From positions 1-21,163 of the forward strand of contig JAGGVT010000016.1 of assembly GCA_021157815.1 (NCBI GenBank): a stretch of DNA of 21,163 bases, written 5' to 3'. The notes below the pieces were generated by a model that did not search any database, was not told the DNA's origin, and saw only the letters and a list, made by a program, of their open reading frames with translations. The position numbers and the translations under genes are program-made. The stretch's first letter is position 1. The number at the start of each line of letters is the position of its first letter. Below are positions 11,859 to 21,163 of the stretch, piece after piece. The stretch is from a bacterium. Its GTDB lineage: Bacteria > JAJVIF01 > JAGGVT01.

Positions 11859-11966
11859 CAATTAGCCACCCTTGAAAAGGCATTTTGGATTGTTGCTTGC
11901 TAGCAAGTAGCCCGGTTTCTCATGAGACTGTCTCAGAACTAATTGAAATGTGCAAATAACCAGTAA

Positions 11967-12186
11967 TTTTGTGCCGCGGGCATCCTGCCTGCATTTTTTT
12001 ATTTAACTTAAGATTTGAAAAGATGCAGGCAGGATGGGGCTGTTGAAAAAGCCCATTATATCCCAGACCGTAGGGGCAACTCTCCGTGGTTGTCCTGTAT
12101 TTATGCCAATATTTAGGGTAATCACAGAGACATACCCCCTACATTCAGCCCTTTTTCAACAGCCCCAGGATGCCCGCAGCACAAAA
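11967..12186. repeat. 28-bp-arm palindromic repeat split by an insertion
   Basis: The left arm (11967-11994) begins TTTTGTGCCGCGGGCATCCT and ends TGCCTGCAT. The right arm begins ATGCAGGC (12023-12030) plus AGGAT (12031-12035), is interrupted by the element at 12036-12166 and one AGGAT copy, and resumes GCCCGCAGCACAAAA (12172-12186). Removing the insertion restores arms that match at 27 of 28 positions around a 28-base spacer. No coding capacity. Confidence 0.7.
12036..12166. mobile_element. 131-bp MITE-like element, 16-bp TIRs, AGGAT target duplication
   Basis: GGGGCTGTTGAAAAAG (12036-12051) is the exact reverse complement of 12151-12166. AGGAT flanks it directly at 12031-12035 and 12167-12171. 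It is the innermost and therefore youngest insertion of the nest. Its core holds another inverted pair, GTAGGGG (12070-12076) and CCCCTAC (12136-12142). The same end sequence occurs again at 20804-20821. The transposase that mobilises it is not in the window. Confidence 0.8.
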
Positions 12187-12351
12187 CACAGAACAAAATT
12201 GTTAGATATTCACAGGATATTTACTAGATGTTTATTAGTTCTGAGACAGTCTCCTCATTACCGGGAAAAATGAGGTTGAATTTACGCATTACCCCGGTGA
12301 AGGGACACCGCGGTGAAAAGACACCGGGCTACATGTTATAAACTAAAAACA

Positions 12352-12542
12352 TTTTCCCCTGGGAGCGCTGGTTTCTAACCGGCACCTGTGTTAGGTTAAT
12401 AGAAATCAATCAAGCTTGTCTAACAAACGGCATACCAAAAAATATACGTTGAGTTAATCCAGCATGTTTGTAAGATTCCCGTTTTTACATCTTAGTTAGC
12501 TCGTTCAGGTGCCGGTTAGAAACCAGCGCTCCCAGGGGAAAA
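12352..12542. mobile_element. 191-bp inverted-repeat element with 37-bp perfect arms
   Basis: Bases 12352-12388 are the exact reverse complement of 12506-12542. The arms read TTTTCCCCTGGGAGCGCTGG onward and end at CACCTG. The 117-base AT-rich centre encodes nothing. Near-identical direct repeats AAAAACATTTT (12345-12355) and AAAAACGTTTT (12540-12550) flank a core that would run from CCCC at 12356 to GGGG at 12538, suggesting a target duplication. A diverged single arm lies at 2423-2456. Confidence 0.75.
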
Positions 12543-12588
12543 ACGTTTTCCGACAAGCTCGTGCGTGAGCAGTAAGTGCGATAACAGC

Positions 12589-14820: not shown

Positions 14821-14900
14821 TGTAGGGGCGCTGCTTGCTGCGCCCCGAATTGACCATGTTTAATGCGGCACACCGGGGCGCGGCAAGCAGCGCCCCTACA
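14821..14900. repeat. 80-bp palindromic repeat with 27-bp arms
   Basis: The arms 14821-14847 and 14874-14900 are reverse complements at 26 of 27 positions, with a 26-base centre. The arm begins TGTAGGGGCGCTGCTTGC. It lies upstream of the minus-strand glycosyltransferase in the 334-base gap 14695-15028. That gap otherwise holds only a small CTGATTT/AAATCAG hairpin (about 14951-14966) and no gene. As RNA it would fold very stably and could act as a transcript end, but no T-run follows. Confidence 0.7.
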
Positions 14901-15028: not shown

Positions 15029-15378
15029 TTAGCCGGACGCCTCCTGTTTTTTCATAACTTGTTGTGCCCTGTTGATTTTTTCCAGGATTTTCCGACCATC
15101 TGCTCTCCATCTATACGGTTTTGGATCCTCGTTCCTTCTTTTCAGGTAAGCCATGATTGACCGGATTAATTCTGGAACACTTGAGAAACTTCTGTCGCGA
15201 ATACATTCCATGGTGATATCAGCGAAAAATCTCTCAACCATATTCATCCACGAACAACTTGTTGGTGTAAAGTGCATACGGAATCGAGGATTTTTTCCAG
15301 CCATTTCTTTACCTTTGCATGTTTATGGGTGCTGTAGTTATCAGCGATCACATGAATTTCCATTCCACTGGGGGGTGA
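15029..15378 (-). pseudogene. IS630-family transposase remnant, 5'-truncated and frameshifted
   Basis: The intact part (residues from ATG 15304) reads MHFTPTSCSWMNMVERFF, the typical C-terminal block of IS630/DDE_3 transposases containing the catalytic Glu. Just upstream in another frame is HVIADNYSTHKHAKVKKWLEK, the block with the second catalytic Asp. The two join as WLEK-NPRFRMHF if one base is added to the A6 run (plus-strand T6 at 15291-15296). The N-terminal half with the first Asp is missing. It is either a decayed copy or a truncated one that used -1 frameshifting; no activity is expected. Confidence 0.85.
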
Positions 15379-18565: not shown

Positions 18566-18802
18566 GAGAGCTCTGGAAAAGTCAGGTTTGCCGGAATATT
18601 TAACAAGTGAATTCGATTCCGTTATGCCCGGGAAAGGGCCTGTCGGGAAAGTTGTTGCCTTTTATTGGTAATTGATAAAAACAAAAATTGGCCTCTGAAA
18701 ACATTATTCGCCAATTAACCCGTCATTCCCGCTTTCGCGGGAATGACGGTATTTTGTTCTTTTCTGAAATGTTCCGATAAATCTGACTTATTCAGAGCTC
18801 TC
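18566..18802. mobile_element. 237-bp MITE-like element with 41-bp imperfect TIRs
   Basis: The arms 18566-18606 and 18762-18802 are reverse complements at 33 of 41 positions, perfect over the outer GAGAGCTCTG and over AAGTCAG. The centre encodes nothing but contains a strong palindrome at 18720-18749 and an AATTGGC/GCCAATT pair (18686-18692 and 18710-18716). The flanks (ATTAA and AATAA) are too AT-rich to prove a target duplication. It fills most of the 351-base gap before the miaB-type gene. Confidence 0.65.
18720..18749. repeat. 13-bp perfect-stem palindrome (CGTCATTCCCGC type)
   Basis: CCGTCATTCCCGC (18720-18732) and GCGGGAATGACGG (18737-18749) form a perfect stem with a TTTC loop. The same CGTCATTCCCGC arm appears at 20788, where its partner arm is missing. 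Repeats of this form are scattered through many bacterial genomes. Here it sits inside the 237-bp element. Confidence 0.75.
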
Positions 18803-20787: not shown

Positions 20788-20821
20788 CGTCATTCCCGCG
20801 AAAGGGGCTGTTGAAAAAGCC
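20788..20821. mobile_element. Broken CGTCATTCCCGC palindrome joined to a GGGGCTGTTGAAAAAG end
   Basis: CGTCATTCCCGCGAAA (20788-20803), the left arm and loop of the palindrome type seen at 18720, runs directly into GGGGCTGTTGAAAAAGCC (20804-20821), the terminal repeat of the 131-bp element at 12036. The missing right palindrome arm suggests insertion into it. No second copy of the terminus appears before the window ends, so the element is larger, truncated or diverged. Confidence 0.6.
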
Positions 20822-21163
20822 TATTTTCCCCGTAACCCGGTCATGCCGTCCCGAACTAAAGAAACAATTATCTATAAGGTGAATCAGGCATGCCGTGATA
20901 GTGGCTATCTATGCGGAACTCCGGAATGCCTGCGAACGTTGCAGAATTGATTCATGTTTTTTTACACTAGTGTCCGGTTAAGTTAGATACCAATTACCGT
21001 ATTGCTGATTAATAGAGAACAAACCGGCATGTTTGTATTTATCAGACGTGAAACGAAAGTGAATATCGAGTCGTTCTATCCGTAAAAAGGGTACAGTCCC
21101 GAATGTCACTCGGTTAAGCAGTATAGCCAATTTCAATTAGTTTACGTTCTAATTTTCTAGGTA
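20822..21163. other. Non-coding right edge with IS-like ends
   Basis: No supported gene. It contains CAGGCAT/ATGCCTG (20885-20891 and 20926-20932), a second copy of the IS630-type end ACTAGTGTCC (20966-20975) oriented into the unseen sequence, and AAAAAGGGTACAGTCC (21084-21099), related to the repeat inside the glycosyltransferase gene. It may be the flank of an insertion sequence lying to the right. Confidence 0.45.

Follow-up and report, generated by a model that had tools for sequence, protein, structure and literature searches.

Why do miniature mobile elements lie one inside another behind rpoC, and what fixes the point at which each has entered? The locus lies in the window analysed here, a stretch of 21,163 nucleotides from a 3.22 Mb draft genome in 221 contigs that is 91% complete. 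An earlier note, made from the letters of the window, had described two nested elements, each splitting a palindrome. We refer to the inner and outer elements as MITE1 and MITE2, and to their ends as TIR1 and TIR2. The features that bear on the question are these:

11907-11923, + strand: left arm and loop of the GTAGCCCGG REP-like hairpin, the outer target, ending in CTCAT TSD copy 1 (11919-11923)
11924-12253, + strand: MITE2, 330 bp, made up of a 194-bp core and the nested MITE1 (131 bp plus a 5-bp TSD), with 20-bp TIRs
11967-12186, + strand: inverted pair of REP-B hairpins (GCGGGCATCCTGCCTGC) within MITE2, split by MITE1
11976-11992, + strand: REP-B hairpin 1, its tip empty at this locus and filled by MITE1 in other MITE2 copies
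12031-12035, + strand: AGGAT TSD copy 1, the apex of REP-B hairpin 2 (loop GGA plus the closing A-T pair)
12036-12166, + strand: MITE1, 131 bp, with IS1182-type TIRs GGGGCTGTTGAAAAAG that are perfect (16/16)
12167-12171, + strand: AGGAT TSD copy 2
12254-12258, + strand: CTCAT TSD copy 2
12259-12332, + strand: the outer hairpin's right arm together with a degenerate partner REP that has ACCGGGCTAC at its end, the whole forming a BIME-like REP pair
12345-12549: empty inverted pair of REP-E palindromes GCGCTGGTTTCTAACCGGC (copies at 12365-12383 and 12511-12529), adjoining the nested block
18725-18744: empty REP-A (CGTC-1 type) palindrome ATTCCCGCTTTCGCGGGAAT, REP-A being the most frequent MITE1 target
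20788-20964, + strand: half of a REP-A site (CGTCATTCCCGCGAAA), after which a 210-type MITE1 runs for about 160 bp before it is cut off

The coordinates bear out both elements as first described: MITE2 has perfect 20-bp TIRs (GAGACTGTCTCAGAACTAAT, 20/20) between its CTCAT copies, and MITE1 has 16-bp TIRs between its AGGAT copies. In-silico removal of the 131-bp element and one AGGAT leaves a 194-bp element, and further removal of MITE2 and one CTCAT leaves GTAGCCCGGTTTCTCATTACCGGG. The order of insertion can indeed be read, as intact palindromes free of any MITE are numerous and an un-nested 194-bp MITE2 copy, with both REP-B tips free, exists elsewhere in the genome (C175, L079). The palindromes themselves need redrawing. 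What the earlier note took for a palindrome with 28-bp arms does contain the nested element, but really consists of two REP-like hairpins in inverted orientation, GCGGGCATCCTGCCTGC and its inverse; MITE1 lies within this palindromic structure, in the loop of the second hairpin rather than at the centre of one large palindrome. Likewise, the outer block does consist of a palindromic GTAGCCCGG-type arm pair, with GTAGCCCGGT and ACCGGGCTAC at 11907-11916 and 12323-12332, but MITE2 occupies the loop of its first hairpin (CCCGGT-TTCTCATT-ACCGGG) and not the middle of the block. A comparable REP pair (L164) carries MITE2 in both tips. That every layer sits at a hairpin tip, and that the inner element has IS1182-family ends, had escaped the first reading.

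Other parts of the window hold related material. The REP-E palindrome, empty here, is occupied by MITE1 elsewhere (L102, TSD TTCTA). Inverted GTAGGGGCG arms at 14822-14899 form an empty copy of the second target class of MITE2, and a fragment of an IS630-family transposase (NF033545, 45.8 bits, under the cut-off) lies at 15029-15304 on the minus strand. At 20788-21163, the sequence that interrupts the truncated MITE1 starts with CACTAGTGTCCGGTTAAGTTAG and reaches the contig end, possibly representing one more nested insertion.

Both TIRs recur throughout the genome. A search for each, as the earlier note had proposed, found 178 matches to TIR1 GGGGCTGTTGAAAAAG (at most one mismatch) and 28 to TIR2 GAGACTGTCTCAGAAC (at most three mismatches), against 0 for the reversed control pattern in each case; these counts dispose of a chance origin of the nested TIRs, and the many other copies support the proposal that both elements are mobilised in trans. 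The 131-bp MITE1 is present in at least 40 copies of 93-97% identity (the best 40 matches were scored), and TIR1 bounds miniature families of about 131, 190, 210, 219 and 453 bp, most of which have little but their ends in common. MITE1 has the make-up of a MITE: it is non-coding, 131 bp long and multi-copy, with TIRs and a direct TSD at 46 sites. Assignment of MITE1 and MITE2 to the IS200/IS605 group (HUH Y1), which is defined by the absence of TIRs and TSDs, is rejected on their perfect TIRs and TSDs.

The hunt for full insertion sequences with the same ends succeeded in part. TIR1, with the same 16-bp left end, bounds a 995-bp element (C90:4771-5765; L096:572-1566) that carries pieces of an IS1182-family transposase matching NF033551, PF05598, PF01609 and PF13751, and that is internally deleted and frame-broken. 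NF033551 is the best family for these pieces (E 1.2e-32); the score of 113.5 bits falls short of the curated cut-off of 270, the copies being internally deleted. A second broken IS1182-type copy lies at C56; we found no intact transposase in the genome, and when unpaired TIR1 ends were checked for a full-length transposase, the 995-bp element remained the sole one with transposase pieces. Searches for the transposase gave no match in 58 relatives or in viral contigs, and in wider genome contigs four weak Neisseria matches (32-35% over a short stretch) that we discarded. By sequence, the closest transposases found are those of intact IS1182 elements of Sinorhizobium, at about 46% identity, whose ends read GGGGCTGTTGAAGAAG. 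Given these ends, and TIR1 on the transposase-bearing 995-bp element, MITE1 would most simply be an IS1182-derived MITE. For TIR2 no such parent emerged: at the loci examined, TIR2 ends never enclose a long ORF.

To locate the insertion points, we removed each element together with one TSD copy and compared the centre of the best palindrome with the TSD. The palindrome was centred exactly on the TSD in 42 of 46 unique MITE1 insertions with a direct TSD of at least 4 bp; random sequence from the same loci reaches a palindrome score of at least 5 about any given centre with a frequency of roughly 0.01. Because copies of one REP class cannot count as independent, more weight attaches to how many classes are hit than to how many sites. 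The targets belong to several REP-like families that are unrelated in sequence and have no common stem sequence:

ATTCCCGC-GAAA-GCGGGAAT (class A), TSD 4
GCGGGC-ATCCT-GCCTGC, TSD 5
GCTGGC-ATCTT-GCCGGC, TSD 5
GCTGGT-TTCTA-ACCGGC, TSD 5
GTGGAT-TTAAA-ATCTAC, TSD 5
GCCGCA-GTAGCC-TGCGGC, TSD 6
GCGGAC-AGCCTT-GTCCGC, TSD 6

In the centred cases, the parity of the TSD is that of the loop or palindrome (4 even, 5 odd, 6 even). When the sites are folded as single-stranded DNA, the TSD falls at the hairpin tip, where it makes up the 4-nt loop, or else a loop of 3 or 4 nt and the base pair that closes it. Intact class A sites (ATTCCCGC-NNNN-GCGGGAAT) number 37 in the genome, the window's REP-A palindrome at 18725-18744 among them, against 0 for a control pattern. 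MITE1 thus inserts at the apex of a palindrome, and the apex alone is duplicated, so that the palindrome determines whether the TSD measures 4, 5 or 6 bp.

Palindrome arms lie in the flanks of all readable MITE1 copies, with the exception of a few that also lack a clean TSD. About 22 of 68 MITE1 sites have no clean direct TSD; most of these retain palindrome arms and a few have no palindrome. At seven sites (L012, L030, L094, L101, L113, L120 and L070), the flanking repeats are inverted rather than direct (for example CCCGCGAAA/TTTCGCGGG). Recombination or inversion between copies best accounts for the inverted or altered flanks found at about one-third of sites, and because draft contigs end inside these repeats, some hybrid flanks may be assembly errors. 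At L006, L043, L045 and L099, a foreign end (AAATGTCGAAAGTCGAG), perhaps the terminus of another mobile element, replaces one palindrome arm at or near the TSD.

MITE1 and MITE2 are non-autonomous elements whose insertions fall at the tips of palindromic repeats. We put at roughly three in four the probability of the reading as a whole, in which an IS1182-type transposase, acting in trans, reads the extruded hairpin, with the loop being copied. The enzyme would be of the IS1182 (DDE) type and would come from an element that is now defective or unassembled. It would recognise the hairpin or cruciform extruded by the palindrome; on both strands, the element's 3' ends would then be joined to the loop at its 5' side, and gap repair would copy the loop only. 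All REP-like palindromes, including those inside mobile elements, would be targets, making nesting automatic. A fixed stagger, and with it a fixed TSD length, is the usual description of a DDE transposase. A TSD that varies in length with the target loop points instead to a DDE enzyme that recognises secondary structure in DNA. On balance we favour a specific form of this mechanism, in which the transposase would cut an extruded hairpin, whatever its sequence, at both stem-loop junctions. The TSD would then equal the loop, and the target, not the enzyme, would dictate its length.

Exact centring and TSD parity would also be expected if a transposase dimer bound two symmetric half-sites on duplex DNA, in the manner of a repressor, and cut symmetrically about the dyad with a flexible gap and no extrusion. 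Regulator-like recognition of REPs has been proposed (Tobes and Pareja, 2006; PMC1525189). We consider this explanation unlikely, since the target stems share no sequence: half-site binding would have to be sequence-blind, and the length of the TSD would need a separate explanation.

A quite improbable history is that a few insertions into REPs were followed by copying of REP-MITE-REP composites, by RAYT-type transposases or by recombination. The genome does encode nine Y1_Tnp genes, the 131-bp copies are closely alike, and the hybrid and inverted flanks do attest recombination between copies. However, several MITE families are spread over several palindrome classes and lie in either orientation: classes A, B and G hold the 131-bp family, and classes B, C, D, E and F hold other MITE1 families. 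With one MITE in several classes and in both orientations, neither the stem sequence nor a single ancestral composite explains the pattern. Moreover, the outer flanks vary from site to site, and for the classes tested, no target palindrome adjoins any of the nine Y1_Tnp genes. A RAYT-like Y1_Tnp gene at L149 (364-1104) is flanked by five palindromes of another kind, AGCCCGG...GGGTT, and this locus is likely a REPtron.

Different MITEs in two other genomes act alike, which also speaks against the copying of composites. Two relatives of the same class but another family (G001 and G003) carry different MITEs of 140-150 bp with an identical TIR1. In these genomes, eight insertions have a direct TSD, and for five of them the TSD coincides with the centre of a palindrome that differs from those found in the present genome, such as ATGTGC-TGGAA-GCACAT (TSD TGGAA) and GC-TGAC-GC (TSD of 4). 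TIR1 is absent from the third genome of the class and from the other 55 relatives, and TIR2 from all three relatives of the same class.

MITE2 behaves similarly, with looser centring (exact in 8 of 15 cases and within 1 bp in 5 more). It lies repeatedly in GTAGCCCGGTTT-CTCAT-TAACCGGG (TSD 5) at several other loci, and in a second target class, GTAGGGGCG...CTTG...CGCCCC (TSD 4). MITE2 therefore lies at or near hairpin tips. The first bases of TIR2 bear only a loose resemblance to TIR1, and the data fit a transposase shared with MITE1 as well as a separate one. The earlier note had treated a common 5-bp duplication as a property of the two families and as a sign of separate transposases. TSDs in fact measure 4, 5 or 6 bp and are set by the palindrome, so the equal 5-bp TSDs at this locus say nothing about one versus two transposases. 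MITE2 itself carries two REP-B hairpins, which are MITE1 targets, hence the nesting; across MITE2 copies, either REP-B tip is filled by a 131-, 190- or 210-bp MITE1.

The earlier note also suggested that the site behind the rpoC terminator is a tolerated landing zone. Two unrelated elements with fixed 5-bp TSDs might have accumulated there, as the intergenic position and the two local 5-bp TSDs would allow, but this is very improbable: elsewhere the duplications in both families measure 4 or 5 (6) bp, and positions track palindromes genome-wide, with equivalent insertions in the same palindromes at other loci. Nor is the site special in the three relatives of the same class, which have a plain terminator only after rpoC and so provide no orthologous empty or filled site for comparison. 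The nesting is targeted, the landing site being the palindrome and not the rpoC terminator. The locus consists of targeted insertions piled on one another, and the window offers one instance of a process that has recurred in the genome. That the arms are the element's own long terminal repeats, as their presence around nearly every copy might suggest, can be dismissed, since one MITE has different arms at different loci and intact palindromes occur without a MITE.

The nearest known behaviour is the "stem-loop replacing" transposition of IS1272/TnSha1 (PMC5678879; PMC4923244), also of the IS1182 family, whose targets are inverted repeats of unrelated sequence chosen by structure over sequence. 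IS1272 deletes the stem-loop and leaves no TSD, whereas 42 of 46 insertions in the present genome retain the stem and carry a duplicated apex. For an IS1182 transposase guided by structure, Wan et al (2017; PMC5678879) distinguished three outcomes: the stem-loop is replaced (seen with IS1272), the stem-loop is duplicated, or only the loop is duplicated, the last drawn as a hypothetical "pathway c". The present genome fits this third outcome. If the cuts do fall at the stem-loop junctions, a loop-duplicating pathway that was drawn but unobserved for IS1272 would be present at dozens of sites in three genomes.

The second outcome can be recognised in IS1182 elements of Rhizobium binae, Providencia, Klebsiella oxytoca, Aminobacter and Bacillus subtilis plasmids (including plasmid loci L152-L155 and L159), which share the transposase type, the hairpin site and a structure-dependent duplication: each occupies a hairpin resembling a terminator, and most or all of that stem-loop is present on either side of the element. 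The ends of these elements are unlike GGGGCTGTTGAAAAAG. In contrast, IS1182 elements of Sinorhizobium and Bradyrhizobium (ends GGGGCTGTTGAAGAAG or GGGGTCGTTGAAAAAG) include near-identical TIRs in Sinorhizobium but show plain 5-bp TSDs and no palindrome at four sites examined, so the choice of an apex is not general in that clade.

Insertion at a palindrome axis with a short TSD is also known from ISRm22 and ISPsy8, which enter the symmetry axis of REPs with fixed duplications of 6 and 3 bp (Tobes and Pareja, 2006; PMC1525189); each of these uses one REP consensus and one TSD length. CGTC-1 REPs are defined (PMC3733652) by a CGTC tag, an 8-bp stem, a 4-nt loop and a CCA tail. Class A fits this definition, its main form CGTC-ATTCCCGC-GAAA-GCGGGAAT-CCA having all of these features, with CGTCATTCCCGCGAAAGCGGGAATCCA at many sites; several other targets start with GTAG. 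In the passages of that source examined, CGTC-1 and GTAG REPs are not presented as targets of IS1182-type MITEs.

Palindrome targeting is thus already known, both for REP-specific ISs and for IS1182 elements, some of which target palindromes, as both Furi et al (2016) and Wan et al (2017) report on the basis of a 2015 review. A loop-following duplication was not found in the open literature examined, and may stand in subscription journals or ISfinder, which lay outside the search. What the present data add is the use, in three genomes, of many unrelated palindromes by one set of ends whose duplications track the loop, together with the nesting that results. Such insertions would explain how REPs, terminators and mobile elements stack into mosaics, and could provide a natural, sequence-blind reporter of hairpin formation in a living genome. 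Loop-only duplication would join the stem-loop deletion of IS1272 and the duplication of whole stem-loops within a single family, and IS1182 elements could then serve to dissect how the positions of cuts in a hairpin set the outcome.
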